The position numbers were made by a program, and so were the translations under genes. Below, one piece after another: positions 16,138-22,076 of a DNA stretch of 64,000 bases. Under the pieces are notes generated by a model, which searched no databases, had not been told where the DNA came from, and worked only from the letters and a program-made list of their open reading frames with translations. Origin of the DNA: Gilvimarinus sp. 2_MG-2023 (lineage in GTDB: Bacteria > Pseudomonadota > Gammaproteobacteria > Pseudomonadales > Cellvibrionaceae); assembly GCF_030547685.1 (NCBI RefSeq), contig NZ_JAUOQM010000048.1, positions 62,001-126,000 of the forward strand, in the 5' to 3' direction. Positions within the stretch are counted from its first letter, which is position 1, and every line of letters begins with the position of its first letter.

Positions 16138-16944
16138 ATGCCAAAACAATTCTCTGGAGTCGATCGCAATTTTGATGATCTGGCAGAGCGCTTTGACCGC
16201 AATATATACGGTCAATTAAAAGGGAAGATTCGATTGGCGGTGTTACATCGTGACTTTGCTGATTTTTTGCCCATTGCACCTTATGTACCTCTGACGCCGG
16301 ATAAGACTTGCAACATACTAGACGCCGGTGGTGGGCAGGGACAATTTTCGCTGCCTTTGGCCGCGGCGGGCCACTCTTTGACCTTGTGTGATCTTTCACA
16401 AAAGATGTTAAGCAAAGCCAAAATTAGGGCGGCGCAACTTGGGGCTGAAGGCGTTCGGTATATTCATAGCCCGATCCAGTCTCTGCCAGAAACAGTGCAC
16501 TATGATGTGATTTTATGTCATGCCGTCATGGAGTGGGTTGTTGATCCCCAAGCGTTGTTACAGTGCCTGTGGCACAAAATACAGCCAGGCGGCTATGTTT
16601 CGATTATTTTTTATAATCACCACGCTTTGGTGTATAAAAATCTACTGCGCGCCAATTACAAAAAGGTGATCGCAGCCGATTACCGAGCATCTCGAGGCAG
16701 CCTTACCCCCATTAACCCCATAGAGCCTGAGCAAGTACTGGGGTGGGCCGACTCACTGGGGGCTGAATTATTGTGTCACAGTGGTATACGAGTATTTCAC
16801 GATTATATTCTCGACCCGCAGAGCCGCCAGCAGGCCCCAGACCAGGTGATTGAGCTTGAGCTCAGCTATTCTCGCCGGCCACCCTTTCGCGATTTGGGTC
16901 GTTATGTCCACTTGTTGTTGCGTAAACCCATGGTTGAGGATTAA
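16138..16944 (+). CDS. cmoM: tRNA 5-carboxymethoxyuridine methyltransferase CmoM
   Basis: 268 residues. CmoM methylates cmo5U34 to mcmo5U in tRNAs that read four-fold boxes. The N-terminal DRNFDDLAERFDRNIYGQLKG is the clear family signature. The class I SAM fold follows: ILDAGGGQGQFSLPLA (motif I), LCDLSQKML and VILCHAVMEWV. The C-terminal extension RDLGRYVHLLLRKP is also typical. The gene overlaps the convergent J-domain gene by 4 bp at its 3' end. Cma/Cmo partners (cmoA, cmoB) are not in the window. Confidence 0.93.
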   Translation: MPKQFSGVDRNFDDLAERFDRNIYGQLKGKIRLAVLHRDFADFLPIAPYVPLTPDKTCNILDAGGGQGQFSLPLAAAGHSLTLCDLSQKMLSKAKIRAAQLGAEGVRYIHSPIQSLPETVHYDVILCHAVMEWVVDPQALLQCLWHKIQPGGYVSIIFYNHHALVYKNLLRANYKKVIAADYRASRGSLTPINPIEPEQVLGWADSLGAELLCHSGIRVFHDYILDPQSRQQAPDQVIELELSYSRRPPFRDLGRYVHLLLRKPMVED

Positions 16945-17417
16945 ACCTCTTGCAGTAATACGTCTTTTGCTTGATTAACCCTCTGAGCGAGATAATCATT
17001 GCCGCCACGATCGGGGTGTACCTTTTGCATAAGTGCTTTATGAGCTTTTAATAACTCCGATTGGGTGAGTGTGCCTTGATTAAAGCTTTGTTTTAATCCC
17101 AGCACCTCGGCCGCCTCTGAGGGGGACATTCGACCATTGGTGGTTGCTTGAGGATTTTGGGTGCGACGTTTTAGAAAGGGTAATATTTGTACAATCAGCC
17201 CCAGGGCAACTTTGCCCAGTGGGAGGAGTGCCGCTAGCGCTGCTCCTAACCAGTGGATTCGTCCGGTCATCACCAGATAAATCAGTAGCACCATTAATAC
17301 AGCAAACAGTGTTTGTAAGATTGCTCGACGCTTTTTCCCCGCCGGTTGGCTTTTCAGCCATTGATAACCGAAAAAAACCAAGGCAATAAATAATAAAACG
17401 GGTAATAGTCGAAACAC
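16941..17417 (-). CDS. Membrane-anchored J-domain protein (TIM14/DjlA-like)
   Basis: 158 residues. Two or three hydrophobic segments occupy roughly residues 1-85, and a C-terminal J-domain (about 100-157) carries the essential HPD in KVHPDRGGNDYL. The arrangement (N-terminal membrane helices, short C-terminal J-domain) matches DnaJ-domain proteins of the TIM14/Pam18 type found widely in proteobacteria. It should recruit DnaK to the inner membrane. The gene is convergent with cmoM, overlapping by 4 bp. No partner gene nearby indicates its client. Confidence 0.82.
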   Translation of the reverse strand: MFRLLPVLLFIALVFFGYQWLKSQPAGKKRRAILQTLFAVLMVLLIYLVMTGRIHWLGAALAALLPLGKVALGLIVQILPFLKRRTQNPQATTNGRMSPSEAAEVLGLKQSFNQGTLTQSELLKAHKALMQKVHPDRGGNDYLAQRVNQAKDVLLQEV

Positions 17418-17633: not shown

Positions 17634-19565
17634 ATGCTCCGACTGCGAGATTCAAGGATGAATATAAAATCACTGTTAATATTGAACACTCTAGTGTTAG
17701 CTGCCTGCGGCGGCGGTAGCGATGGGGGCGCGCCCCCTGTGGGATCGACCTCGTCAAGCTCAATCCAAACCAGCTCTACGCAATTCAGCTCGTTACAGTC
17801 CAGTGTGGGGTCGTCCAGCTCAGTACAATCGAGCTCTGTACTGTCGAGCTCAGCCCGCAGTAGCAGTCTGTCGAGCGATTCTAGCGCCAGTGTATCGAGC
17901 AGCAGTGCGTTGTCATCGAGTATCAGTAGTGTGCCGGTAAGTAGTTCATCCAGCAGCAGTGTTATTGCCATCAGCAGCTCTTCGGTCAGCTCTGCTGCTA
18001 GTAGTTCAACAAGCTCCTCAGTCAGCTCTACCAGCAGTAGTGCTCAATCCAGTGCGTCGAGCAGTTCAGCCGAGGTCGATATCACCGGCACCGTGACCTA
18101 CGATAGGGTGCCTGTTACGTCTACCGGTTTAGATTATGCCAACACTTATGAGCAACCAGTGCGCGCCGCTGTTGTTAATTTGGTGGACTCATCGGGCCAA
18201 ATATTGGCAAATACCGAAACGAATGATGCGGGCAGCTACTCATTCACCATCGATGCCAATACCTTGGTTAAAATTCAGGTTGAGGCACGATCACAACGCA
18301 CAGGTACGCCGCGTTGGCATTTACGGGTGGAAGATAACACCAATGATAATGCACTGTATGTGCTGGAAGGGGCGTTGTTTAATTCCGGCAGTTCCCATTC
18401 CAATCGCGATTTACACGCGCCGTCTGGCTGGACCGGCAACAGTTATGGTGATGTCAGGTCTGCTGCCCCATTTGCCATCCTCGATACAGTCTATGATGCC
18501 TTAACAAAACTGTTGGAATCGGATGCTAATTTACAGTTACCCGTCTCGCGCTTGCGTTGGTCGCCTCTGAATAAAACTGCCAATGGTGCATTAACCAGTG
18601 GCGACATCGGCACCAGTTTTTACTCCAATTCGGTTATTTATATTCTTGGTGACGAAGATAATGATACCGATGAGTACGATCAGCATGTGGTGGCCCACGA
18701 GTGGGCGCACTATTTAGAAGATAAGCTTGCCAATCGGCAAGATTCGGTCGGCGGTTCTCACAGTGGCAGTGATAAGTTAGATATGCGAGTAGCTTTCTCT
18801 GAAGGGTTCGGTAATGCCATTGCTGGGCATGTATTGGCAGATGCCCTCTATCTGGATACTTATTCTGCTCAGCAAGGGTTTGCCGGTGGCTTTGATATTG
18901 CAGCGGGGTCTTACTCAGACAGCGGTTGGTTTAACGAATCTTCCATTCAAAGTATTCTCTATCGATTCTCACAAACGACTGGCGGGTTTGACGCGGTTGT
19001 TGATGTGTTAAGTTCCCCGCACTACCGCGATAGTGAGGCGCATTTAAGTATTTTTACCTTTGCCGATGTGTTGTCCAACGTTGAACCGACTAAATTATCG
19101 AGTTTTGAAAGTTTTTATAATGCCGAAACCATTCATTCGACGGATGCCTTTGCGCTGGGTGAAACCAATGATGGTGGCACCCCTAATGCGTTGCCAATTT
19201 ATAAAACTCTACCCACCGATGGCTCAATCACTAATGTATGTAGTACCCAAATTAACGGTACATCGCAAGGCTCTAATAAATTGGGTTCCTGGGTGTATTT
19301 CACAATTCAACCGACGGTGACCGGAACCTACCGGTTGGATATAAATAAGACCAGTCCCGCGGCCAGAGCCACCGACCCCGATTTTATTGTCGCCCTACGT
19401 GGCCAGTCGATCGCTGAGGGATATTCGGCCGAGGTTGATGCCGAGAGCAATAGTTTTTCTCTGGTCAATGGAAATCTTTATGTCGTATCGGTGCAAGATT
19501 GGAATGCTCATAGCGACAGTAACGAGGCATCTTGTTTTGATCTTACTTTGGCCCAGTTACCTTAA
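17634..19565 (+). CDS. Poly-serine lipoprotein with gluzincin-like metallopeptidase domain
   Basis: 643 residues from the ATG at 17634; the ATG at 17658 is an alternative. The N-terminus is a lipoprotein signal (LVLAAC lipobox, then GGGS). Residues about 36-146 are almost only serine with Val/Ala/Gln, the long poly-Ser linker typical of Cellvibrio relatives. Next come a carboxypeptidase-regulatory-like beta domain (about 148-230) and a catalytic domain with HEWAH near residue 354 and a second glutamate in FSEGFGN about 31 residues on, the spacing and context of a gluzincin zinc peptidase. A C-terminal beta domain (GSWVYFTIQPTVTGTYRLDI) resembles the PPC domain. It probably sits on the outer membrane surface. 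The next gene, 10 bp away, is a second lipoprotein. Family-level assignment of the peptidase is inference. Confidence 0.8.
   Translation: MLRLRDSRMNIKSLLILNTLVLAACGGGSDGGAPPVGSTSSSSIQTSSTQFSSLQSSVGSSSSVQSSSVLSSSARSSSLSSDSSASVSSSSALSSSISSVPVSSSSSSSVIAISSSSVSSAASSSTSSSVSSTSSSAQSSASSSSAEVDITGTVTYDRVPVTSTGLDYANTYEQPVRAAVVNLVDSSGQILANTETNDAGSYSFTIDANTLVKIQVEARSQRTGTPRWHLRVEDNTNDNALYVLEGALFNSGSSHSNRDLHAPSGWTGNSYGDVRSAAPFAILDTVYDALTKLLESDANLQLPVSRLRWSPLNKTANGALTSGDIGTSFYSNSVIYILGDEDNDTDEYDQHVVAHEWAHYLEDKLANRQDSVGGSHSGSDKLDMRVAFSEGFGNAIAGHVLADALYLDTYSAQQGFAGGFDIAAGSYSDSGWFNESSIQSILYRFSQTTGGFDAVVDVLSSPHYRDSEAHLSIFTFADVLSNVEPTKLSSFESFYNAETIHSTDAFALGETNDGGTPNALPIYKTLPTDGSITNVCSTQINGTSQGSNKLGSWVYFTIQPTVTGTYRLDINKTSPAARATDPDFIVALRGQSIAEGYSAEVDAESNSFSLVNGNLYVVSVQDWNAHSDSNEASCFDLTLAQLP
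17740..18072 (+). repeat. Low-complexity poly-serine codon tract
   Basis: A run of AGC/AGT/TCG/TCC/TCA serine codons with interspersed Val, Ala, Gln and Thr codons encodes the linker of the metallopeptidase lipoprotein. The GAGCTC/TCGAGC units recur, so the tract is a plausible site of slippage length change. Confidence 0.8.
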
Positions 19566-19575
19566 GGGATAGGTT

Positions 19576-20121
19576 ATGAATATTGTAAGCAAAATTTGTT
19601 TATTAGTGGTGTGTGTTTGGGGTCTCTACGGTTGTGAGAGAGGGCAGTCGCCGTTAAGTCTAGACAAGAAACCGATCAGTCGCGCCTTGCCTATAATCAC
19701 GGCAAAATCATTGCACTCACCAGTGGGTAAGCCCTCAATGAATGTAGCGATTAAATACTCTGAATATACAGTGCCGATGGGGGAGGTGTTTGAACTTGAG
19801 ACACCACTGCTTAGCGGTTTAGATGCGGGTGAGCTTGAGGTGACTGCCACAGCCGATAATGCAGTTACTTTGTACGATGGCGTCTTTAAGCGTTTTTCTC
19901 CGGTTCGTCGAGGAGAGCTGCCCTTCACTTTAAACGTATTGGTTCAGCAGCCCGGCAAGCATTACCTGACGCTTGAGTTGACGCACCGTAAAGAGCGGGT
20001 AAAGTTTCCTCATAAGACAGTTAAACTTATTTTATGGGTTGGCGAAAAGCCTGAGCTAACGCTAAAGAAGGCATCAAGCTTATCCAAACACACCGTCTTG
20101 CCGGCGCAAGAGCGCGAGTGA
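19576..20121 (+). CDS. Lipoprotein of unknown function, partner of the metallopeptidase
   Basis: 181 residues with a lipoprotein signal peptide (LLVVCVWGLYGC; Cys at about residue 20). The mature protein is rich in beta strands (YSEYTVPMGEVFELETPL, LTLELTHRKERV) and looks like a single immunoglobulin-like domain with a charged C-terminal tail. It has no catalytic motif that I recognise. It begins 10 bp after the metallopeptidase stop with GGGATAGG as ribosome site, so the two are one operon and may form a complex or be substrate and enzyme. Function is unknown. Confidence 0.7.
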   Translation: MNIVSKICLLVVCVWGLYGCERGQSPLSLDKKPISRALPIITAKSLHSPVGKPSMNVAIKYSEYTVPMGEVFELETPLLSGLDAGELEVTATADNAVTLYDGVFKRFSPVRRGELPFTLNVLVQQPGKHYLTLELTHRKERVKFPHKTVKLILWVGEKPELTLKKASSLSKHTVLPAQERE

Positions 20122-20167: not shown

Positions 20168-21205
20168 ATGACGCAATTTGAATTATTACCCGAATGGAGC
20201 CCGCAAGCGGCGGTGCTCTTGACCTGGCCTCATGCTGACACCGATTGGCAGCCCATTTTATCTGAGGCGGAGCTAGTCTATGCTCAGTTAGCCCGCGCTA
20301 TATGTCAATCTGCAAAATTGATAGTGGCAGCTCCGGCCTTTTTACACGAGCACATATTCACTCAATTAGATGGGCAGGGTTTAACCGTCAACCAGTTCAA
20401 ACTCTACCCTGTTAATAGCAATGATACCTGGGCCCGCGATCACGGCCCGCTCTCGGTCAGTGATGGACGCTCCTTTAAAATCATGGACTTCACATTTAAC
20501 GGTTGGGGGGAGAAGTACGAGGCGGATTTGGATAATCAAATAACCGGTACGCTGGCGTCTCAGGGTGTGTTCTCAGTTCCTGTGGAGGCCAGCCCTTTTG
20601 TCTTAGAAGGTGGCGCTATCGAAGTAGATGAAACCGGCGCCCTGCTAACCACGGGGAAATGCCTATTAAATCCTAACCGCAACCCCACATACTCACGTCA
20701 AGAAATTGAGGCTGTATTGCATAAAAGCTTAGGAGCCAAAAAAATTAATTGGCTGGATTACGGCTATTTGGCCGGGGATGATACTGACAGCCATATTGAT
20801 ACTCTGGCGCGGTTAGGCCCTAATAATGCCTTGTTGTATGTGGCCTGCGATGATCCTACAGATGAACACTTTATCGAATTGAACCAAATGCAGGCGCAGC
20901 TGCAAACCTTCAGTAACGCCAAGGGGCAGGCTTATCGATTATTTGCCTTGCCTTGGCCCAAAGCCATATTTAACCAAGCAGGCGAGCGGCTACCCGCTAC
21001 TTATGCAAACTTTTTAATTGTAAATAAGACGGTATTGGTGCCAACCTATAATGACGTGAATGATGCAAAAGCTCTGGAGGTGATCGGGCGCGCCTTCGCG
21101 GATTTTGTCATAATAGGCATTGATTGCCGTGTGTTGATTAAGCAACATGGCAGCTTACATTGCGTTACTATGCAGCTACCGGTAGGAGTGGTCGATGGTG
21201 AATAA
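20168..21205 (+). CDS. aguA: Agmatine deiminase
   Basis: 345 residues, a typical AguA (PAD superfamily). It hydrolyses agmatine to N-carbamoylputrescine and ammonia in the arginine decarboxylase route to putrescine. The family motifs are visible: NDTWARDHGPLSV, DFTFNGWGEKYEADLDN, FVLEGGAIEVDETGALLTT, DDTDSHIDTLARL and the catalytic cysteine near the C-terminus in KQHGSLHCVTMQ. It overlaps aguB by 11 bp, so the two pathway enzymes are translationally coupled; a diguanylate cyclase and a peroxiredoxin follow on the same strand. Confidence 0.95.
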   Translation: MTQFELLPEWSPQAAVLLTWPHADTDWQPILSEAELVYAQLARAICQSAKLIVAAPAFLHEHIFTQLDGQGLTVNQFKLYPVNSNDTWARDHGPLSVSDGRSFKIMDFTFNGWGEKYEADLDNQITGTLASQGVFSVPVEASPFVLEGGAIEVDETGALLTTGKCLLNPNRNPTYSRQEIEAVLHKSLGAKKINWLDYGYLAGDDTDSHIDTLARLGPNNALLYVACDDPTDEHFIELNQMQAQLQTFSNAKGQAYRLFALPWPKAIFNQAGERLPATYANFLIVNKTVLVPTYNDVNDAKALEVIGRAFADFVIIGIDCRVLIKQHGSLHCVTMQLPVGVVDGE

Positions 21206-22076
21206 TTTAAAAGTTGGGGTTATACAGCAAACGTGCAGCGCTGACCTCAACGCCAATATGGATAAAACCCAACAAACCATTCGTGCATTGGCAAATCAGG
21301 GGGCACAGTTGATTGTGCTGCAGGAGCTGTATCGCGGGTTGTACTTTTGTCAGCAAGAAGATGTAACTCAGTTTGATCAAGCAGAGCCGATTCCTGGCCC
21401 GTCAACGGATGTATTAGGTGTGTTGGCCAAAGAGTTGGGTGTAGTCATTGTGGTCTCACTGTTTGAGAAGCGTGCGGCGGGTCTCTATCATAATACAGCC
21501 GTGGTCCTAGAGCGTAATGGAGATATCGCGGGCACTTACCGTAAAATGCATATTCCTGACGATCCTGGCTTTTACGAGAAATTTTATTTTACCCCAGGCG
21601 ATAAGGGTTTTGAGCCAATTGACACATCGGTTGGGCGTTTGGGGATATTAGTGTGCTGGGACCAGTGGTTTCCCGAGGCGGCTCGACTAATGGCAATGGC
21701 GGGGGCTCAAATACTTATTTACCCAACGGCTATTGGCTGGTGTCCATCGGATGACCCCGCCGAGAAAAAACGTCAGAAAGACGCCTGGGTTACTGTGCAG
21801 CGCGCTCATGCTATTGCCAACGGCCTGCCGGTGATAAGCGTGAATAGGGTTGGACATGAAGACGACCCTGCCGGCGGTGAAGGAATAGATTTTTGGGGGA
21901 ACAGCTTTGTGACAGGGCCTCAAGGCGAATTCTTAACCGAATTGGATGCGACTGAGCAAGCACAAGTGGTTAACATAGACTTGCAACGCTCAGAAGATGT
22001 GCGACGTATATGGCCATTTTTGCGCGATCGACGTATTGATGACTACCAAGACTTAACCAAACGCTATCGCGATTAA
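21195..22076 (+). CDS. aguB: N-carbamoylputrescine amidase
   Basis: 293 residues of the nitrilase superfamily. It converts N-carbamoylputrescine to putrescine, CO2 and ammonia, the step after AguA. The catalytic triad is visible: Glu in LQELYRGLYFCQ, Lys in RKMHIPDDPGFYEKFYF and Cys in LVCWDQWFPEAARLMA. The ribosome site TAGGAG lies in the aguA 3' end. Together with aguA it makes a complete agmatine-to-putrescine module. Only 5 bp separate it from the GGDEF gene. Confidence 0.95.
   Translation: MVNNLKVGVIQQTCSADLNANMDKTQQTIRALANQGAQLIVLQELYRGLYFCQQEDVTQFDQAEPIPGPSTDVLGVLAKELGVVIVVSLFEKRAAGLYHNTAVVLERNGDIAGTYRKMHIPDDPGFYEKFYFTPGDKGFEPIDTSVGRLGILVCWDQWFPEAARLMAMAGAQILIYPTAIGWCPSDDPAEKKRQKDAWVTVQRAHAIANGLPVISVNRVGHEDDPAGGEGIDFWGNSFVTGPQGEFLTELDATEQAQVVNIDLQRSEDVRRIWPFLRDRRIDDYQDLTKRYRD

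Follow-up and report, generated by a model that had tools for sequence, protein, structure and literature searches.

Two adjacent genes of Gilvimarinus sp. 2_MG-2023 raise two questions: what kind of peptidase the first encodes, and what the second does beside it. They lie in a 64,000-nucleotide stretch of contig NZ_JAUOQM010000048.1. This whole stretch is called the window here, and positions are those of the window. All features of the two genes given below are on the forward strand.

Architecture of gene A

Gene A is located at 17634 to 19565 and appears to encode a lipid-anchored, M36-like gluzincin of 643 amino acids when read from 17634. When it is read from an alternative start, at 17658, the protein begins with a typical lipoprotein signal peptide, MNIKSLLILNTLVLAAC (17658 to 17708). 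The lipobox Cys, read from the sequence, is at 17706 to 17708 (residue 25, LVLAAC). A lipobox was found in 48 of 56 enzymes with a crude pattern that makes visible errors both ways. After the signal peptide and Cys25, the protein contains a Gly-rich start, a Ser linker, a beta domain, the catalytic region, and a C-terminal beta domain. The linker (17745 to 18074, residues 38 to 147) has 68 Ser among its 110 residues. The lipid anchor and serine linker of roughly 110 residues described in the first-pass annotation are both borne out. In the accessible text of one study, long polyserine linkers are known from carbohydrases of Teredinibacter and its relatives, and Teredinibacter lipoproteins are taken as likely outer membrane anchored (PMC2699552). 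By this comparison, gene A may be exposed at the cell surface.

The first beta domain (18078 to 18404, approximate boundaries) resembles the Pfam family CarboxypepD_reg. The window core matches it with an E value of 2e-4, and all 30 enzyme members searched match it at E <= 0.1, with the window protein below the curated cut-off. These sequence matches support a regulatory-like domain weakly but consistently. The C-terminal domain (19173 to 19562) may be PPC-like. A Pfam search did not detect PPC (PF04151) in the window protein; five of five distant relatives matched it at E values of 3.4e-5 to 0.012, all below the Pfam cut-off. Of the two flanking domains proposed earlier, the regulatory-like one therefore stands on weak matches, and the PPC-like one was detected in distant relatives only. 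Two NCBIfam matches were rejected as far below the cut-off. One was to an ECF transporter family in the N-terminal domain (E value of 0.0024), and the other was to an amidase in the linker (E value of 4.1).

Catalytic motifs and their conservation

The catalytic region extends from 18405 to 19172 (approximate boundaries, from alignment A1 and profile comparison). Its HExxH motif, HEWAH, is at 18696 to 18710 and starts at residue 355, as read from the sequence and the family alignment. The family motif GGxH occurs as GGSH at 18750 to 18761. The Glu of SEG (18801 to 18803, residue 390) is the proposed third metal ligand. It lies exactly 31 residues past the last His of HEWAH, as the first-pass annotation had estimated. 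Among 56 enzymes, HExxH is conserved in 55 and the distal Glu in all.

The 56-member alignment includes the window protein, is given in core numbering, and leaves out the fragments L062, L066, and L071. It restores two members that the 30-row alignment A1 omits, the fused enzyme L017 and the HExxH-less L030. W161, D201, E208, H211, D235, E242, and D260 are identical in 56 of 56 enzymes. At H207, E199, G225, G226, and H228, 55 of 56 enzymes agree. These counts support the motif set directly, and by this alignment the pattern of HExxH and distal Glu is beyond chance. H228, the His of GGxH, is conserved like the proposed ligands and may belong to the active site. The C-terminal domain contains a conserved Cys pair (C388 in 48 of 56 and C486 in 46 of 56).

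An enzyme model was built from alignment A3, which has four rows (the window protein and L041 to L043). Its pLDDT was 44 and its pTM was 0.32. Because this fold prediction failed, the metal site is proposed from conservation.

One paralogue, L030 (G012:C1:2455873-2460372), has Tyr in place of the first HExxH His and has lost GGxH; the distal Glu is retained. It has no adjoining partner gene. Judged by these residues, it is a probable inactive copy.

Enzymes were retrieved from 24 of 58 related genomes. At the level of the class, they were found in 23 of 369 genomes (profile, E <= 1e-5), with misses possible for both enzyme and partner since at most 4 or at most 9 candidates per genome were scored initially. 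A set of 388 genomes from the phylum contained 5 with an enzyme match, of which 2 were new, all within the same class. Three further loci came from the genome collection and two from plasmid records. Among viral contigs, the first search retrieved no enzyme relative. The second retrieved two loci, both of one phage region, and their motif match was taken as chance.

Assignment to a peptidase family

The window enzyme matched no peptidase family in Pfam or NCBIfam. The Pfam listing was made at E <= 10, and HMMER filters discard most matches above about 0.1. Both libraries were searched with the window proteins, and Pfam was searched with 30 enzymes and 25 partners. The first-pass annotation had called the protein gluzincin-like and could not place it in a named family. 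Both statements agree with the conserved motifs and with the profile comparisons, in which M36 appears nearest and M4 weaker.

Matches to M36 (PF02128) were found in 3 of 30 enzyme members at E <= 0.1, the best with an E value of 0.011. Among 8 further proteins, only L065 exceeded the M36 cut-off (25.1 versus 23.3 bits). It belongs to a distant clade (L063, L064, L065, L069, and L070) that is joined to the family by profile at E values of 7e-18 to 7e-32 and by hhalign at 99.9%. In this clade, L063 and L070 match M36 below the cut-off, and L064 and L069 do not match it.

Profiles were compared by using 46 family members, seven of eight M36 loci (L079 was dropped), and 14 of 16 M4 loci (L091 and L095 were dropped). 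The family matched the two weak M36 loci at 92%, the seven M36 loci together at 83%, the five strong ones alone at 55%, and the 14 M4 loci at 39%. Three reversed controls were under 1%. The distant clade matched the seven M36 loci at 91%, the five strong ones at 71%, the two weak ones at 54%, and M4 at 18%. For the two weak M36 loci, the match to M4 (97.0%) is about as good as that to M36 (97.6%), and the M36 and M4 profiles match each other at 92%. The stretches aligned between families are short (33 to 70 columns). Since the alignments are short and the weak M36 loci are about equally M4-like, we call gene A a gluzincin nearest to M36 and go no further. By this weak profile link it appears M36-like, with M4 weaker, and the Pfam test places it outside M36.

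An FTP/PepSY-type propeptide is typical of M36. No FTP or PepSY domain was listed for the window enzyme in Pfam at E <= 10. M4 (PF02868) was rejected on the profile probability of 39% and on spacing, as the window has SEGFGN at 31 and not an NE-type Glu at about 20. Metzincins have the motif HExxHxxGxxH; this group was rejected since HEWAHYLEDKL has neither Gly nor His at the motif places. M30 is not among 25 of the 26 Pfam families listed for the 30 enzyme members at E <= 0.1. A PDB sequence search with the window core alone gave no match. With A1, it gave macroglobulin stretches in the N-terminal domain only (best E value of 0.011).

Gene B and its tail

Gene B starts 10 bp past gene A on the same strand (19576 to 20121) and encodes a partner lipoprotein of 181 amino acids. 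Its lipobox Cys is residue 20 (GLYGC). The model of the mature protein is all beta, and gene B is in both respects the beta-rich lipoprotein that the first reading had described. A crude pattern found a lipobox in 24 of 39 partners, so that some partners are probably not lipoproteins.

The model, made from four alignment rows, had a mean pLDDT of 74, with 67 to 90 in the blocks of a sandwich and 40 to 51 in the blocks of the tail. The model and fold searches place an Ig-like sandwich at 19729 to 20040. It opens with K52, which is identical in 39 of 39 partners and usually begins KPGA. In VIA-align, 47 of the 50 matches listed were macroglobulin or complement chains, and across these 50 the Z values were 9.6 to 11.3 and the rmsd values 2.0 to 7.7 over 93 to 121 residues. 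We take the matched macroglobulin stretch to be MG7, partly from recall. The top Foldseek rows were fimbrial chaperones, sperm proteins, complement, and other Ig-like folds, at E values of 4e-5 and above. The partner core is thus predicted to be an Ig-like sandwich that is similar to macroglobulin MG-type domains in fold alone. The Ig-like fold is common and gives little information on function.

After the sandwich comes a flexible tail. Its conserved C-terminal motif is PAxE, which reads LPAQE in the window (20098 to 20112). A strict pattern ([LIMVTSA]PAxE with at most 6 residues after it) was present in 26 of 46 partners. In 2,000 shuffles of the last 14 residues, the mean was 0.15 and the highest count was 3. 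A loose pattern, AxE, was present in 34 of 46 (shuffled mean of 3.9, highest 11); even by this pattern, 12 of 46 partners lack the tail or have an altered one. Conservation of the tail is directly supported by these counts. We also searched open frames of at least 150 amino acids, not all of them genes, in 464 kb of the window's own contig. The strict pattern occurred in 1 of 362, the window partner itself, and the loose one in 19 of 362. A general sorting signal was rejected for that stretch on the strict count.

The window partner matched no Pfam family at E <= 10. Among 25 partner members, 13 Pfam families were matched by one member each, and none is an inhibitor by name. A duplicated enzyme domain was rejected at hhalign probabilities of 18% or less. 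Two PDB sequence matches (E values of 0.12 and 0.91) were taken as chance.

Side matches of the partner profile include three proteins. One further partner-like lipoprotein, L146 (G295:C14), lacks the PAxE tail (E value of 5.7e-15). The C-terminal part of L124 (G019:C1:51831-52064), presumably an anti-sigma factor, matches weakly (E value of 5e-4). L140 (G330:C84) is a large frame in a genome without the enzyme, and it also matches weakly (E value of 3.3e-6). We take this frame to be a bacterial alpha-2-macroglobulin, and its match agrees with the similarity of the partner model to MG-type folds.

Linkage of the two genes

The partner profile, A6, contains 39 rows. It omits the partners of L043, L055, L060, L063, and L068 and those of the distant clade, as well as the copies that are fused, broken, or far from the enzyme (G033). 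It retrieved partners from 24 of 58 related genomes, the identical set to the 24 that encode the enzyme; this agreement is partly built in, as the profile was built largely from these genomes. It is more telling that the profile was silent in the other 34 genomes and that it found partners in G030, G012, and G033, which contribute no row. The profile was needed, as a search with the window partner as a single sequence found 10 of 58 relatives only.

Partners were retrieved from 21 of the 369 genomes of the class (E <= 0.001). Nineteen of these also encode the enzyme, including G095, in which the partner match is an unrelated large protein. The enzyme occurs without a partner-profile match in G067, G237, and G109, where support for the adjoining ORF is weak or marginal. 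It also does so in G366, where a weak enzyme match lies within a 3,766-amino-acid frame. The partner without the enzyme in G188 is a weak match inside an unrelated protein. Co-occurrence, put forward in the first-pass annotation as a check, was observed in both sets of genomes, and there was no wide absence of the partner, the result named there as refuting.

A partner-type gene adjoins 54 of 60 testable enzyme loci, counting fused and broken cases, counting a single ORF in G109 for both flanking enzymes, and excluding L062, which is cut by a contig end. The share was 24 of 29 in the related genomes (22 separate genes, 1 fused, and 1 broken), 3 of 3 in the genome collection, 24 of 24 testable loci in the class, 2 of 2 new loci in the phylum, and 1 of 2 on plasmids. 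The partners of L043, L148, L150, and L151 are clear (E values of 1.5e-9 to 3e-30). Support for the adjoining ORF is marginal at L063 (2e-4), L055 (4e-4), and L064 (3.2e-4). The ORFs at L060 (0.007) and L068 (0.1) are not above background, as the best of 506 other frames reached 0.0075. Three of the partners in the distant clade are located upstream of the enzyme, and a fourth is flanked by an enzyme on each side. A profile of four distant-clade partners matches A6 at 96.6%.

The distance matrices of 39 pairs were correlated (Mantel r of 0.60, reached in 0 of 2,000 permutations), and shared ancestry contributes to this value. The mean pairwise identity was 20% for the partner versus 38% for the enzyme.

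Enzymes that contain HExxH without an adjoining partner are L016, the paralogues L026, L028, and L029, and the plasmid-borne L149. The genome of L016 encodes a partner 47 kb away. The partner next to L021 in G012 is split between two frames, and this break is either real or a sequencing error. Given these loci and the broken partner, the enzyme may be able to do without a partner.

In G030, enzyme and partner form one open frame of 709 amino acids on one assembled contig, with the partner fused in frame at the C terminus of the enzyme. The last conserved Cys strand of the enzyme is followed directly by KPGATVSM, the sequence with which the partner sandwich usually begins. No second signal peptide occurs within the fused frame, which makes a simple missed stop unlikely. 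It ends in RAQEQRY, which keeps the tail as RAQE.

Genomic neighborhood

Upstream of gene A, on the opposite strand, 16941 to 17417 encodes a small membrane protein that presumably ends in a J-domain-like segment. Directly downstream of the pair, the genes at 20168 to 22076 are, we assume, an agmatine deiminase and an N-carbamoylputrescine amidase. An agmatine deiminase-like gene, by the same assumption, follows the pair in all seven same-genus loci (L003 to L009) and in L010 and L012. Genes that we take to be uvrD- or ruvC-like follow it in several other genera. Scans for promoters and terminators gave no clear excess over shuffles.

How the pair may work

Whether the two genes form one working unit, a two-subunit surface peptidase with a docking partner, is to us an evenly balanced question, and this is the reading that we prefer. 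The M36-like zinc metallopeptidase would be held at the cell surface by its lipid anchor and long linker, and the Ig-fold subunit would be exported together with it. HExxH and the distal Glu would bind zinc and cleave peptides. The partner, in effect an extra domain that can detach, would dock at the C-terminal side of the enzyme, the position that it has in the fusion. The flexible PAxE tail would reach the enzyme and set stability, latency, or substrate access. Of the parts of the partner, the tail is the one most likely to contact the enzyme at a fixed site. The motifs, the linkage with its one fusion, the predicted sandwich, and the conserved tail are the direct support; we infer that the enzyme is exposed at the surface, binds metal, and is active, and that the partner docks on it. 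The fusion and the partner-free enzymes lean toward a subunit. The conserved tail and an enzyme without a recognized propeptide lean toward restraint. The first-pass annotation had suggested enzyme and inhibitor or a surface complex. Co-occurrence, adjacency, and one fusion uphold a linked pair, and its two products may bind each other. The partner tail, the fusion, and the GGxH His go beyond that annotation, as one stretch of DNA cannot reveal their conservation.

A more specific form of the two-subunit reading is tentative. The gluzincin family would have an active-site His of its own, in GGxH, and would be gated by a detachable Ig-fold subunit. The tail would insert in trans (in cis when fused) and replace the propeptide of M4 and M36.

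It is possible, if doubtful, that the partner serves as a dedicated inhibitor or as an immunity protein; its sandwich would then bind the enzyme, and its tail would plug the active-site cleft until the enzyme arrives at the surface or at its target. A conserved C-terminal tail would suit a plug, the window enzyme has no recognized inhibitory propeptide, and there are co-encoded precedents in the accessible text of two papers, protealysin with emfourin (PMC9505478) and, in Listeria, a metzincin with a lipoprotein likened to TIMP (PMC8235301). However, the fused enzyme would be self-inhibited unless processed, and G012 retains two HExxH enzymes, one of them beside a broken partner. The window partner has no Pfam family, and the scattered matches of the 25 members include no inhibitor family.

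We consider it improbable that the partner is the substrate of the enzyme or an unrelated neighbor held by conserved gene order. The partner evolves fast, as its lower identity indicates, but the pair persists across different neighborhoods, on a plasmid, and once as a fusion, and the partner is upstream in the distant clade. Most improbable is that gene A is no peptidase and uses a zincin fold for scaffolding or binding; we know of no activity for it, and L030 has lost the first His and GGxH, but the catalytic Glu and the proposed ligands are present in 55 or 56 of 56 members.

If the two-subunit reading is true, two genes without a function name in plasmid records become one system with testable roles. 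In those records, the enzyme is a "hypothetical protein" in 2 of 2 and the partner is "hypothetical" in 1 of 1. The enzymes would be an M36-like branch that may have swapped the usual propeptide for a separate, co-inherited subunit. The short conserved tail would be a candidate docking or inhibitory peptide.

Comparison with known systems

A metallopeptidase with a co-encoded protein is a known arrangement, and the pairing of these families is unnamed in the Pfam and NCBIfam libraries searched. Our literature search found precedents and no name for the pair itself; one topic was swamped by a general term, and we make no claim of absence from print.

Gene A shares HExxH and a downstream Glu with M36 (fungalysin, PF02128), the Glu being in a GEGW/SEGF context. 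From the last His to this Glu, the spacing is 24 residues in the five strong M36 loci and 31 in the window enzyme. Unlike M36, gene A has a conserved GGxH, a lipid anchor, and a separate partner, and no FTP or PepSY domain is listed for it. With M4 (thermolysin), of which protealysin is a member, it shares the gluzincin motif arrangement. The M4 spacing is 20 in 12 of 14 loci, in contrast to 31 in gene A, where SEGFGN replaces the NE-type segment.

The protealysin gene is in an operon with that of emfourin, a small protein that binds the metalloprotease 1:1 and restrains it, according to the accessible text (PMC9505478). Protealysin is called intracellular in the literature available to us, whereas the window partner is predicted to be exported and has no Pfam match. 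In Listeria, a secreted metzincin of phage origin adjoins a TIMP-like lipoprotein, again by the accessible text (PMC8235301). That partner is likened to TIMP, whereas the window partner is a predicted Ig/MG sandwich and its enzyme is no metzincin. The macroglobulin MG7-type domain is alike in fold; gene B differs from it in that it stands alone, appears to be exported, and has a conserved C-terminal tail.
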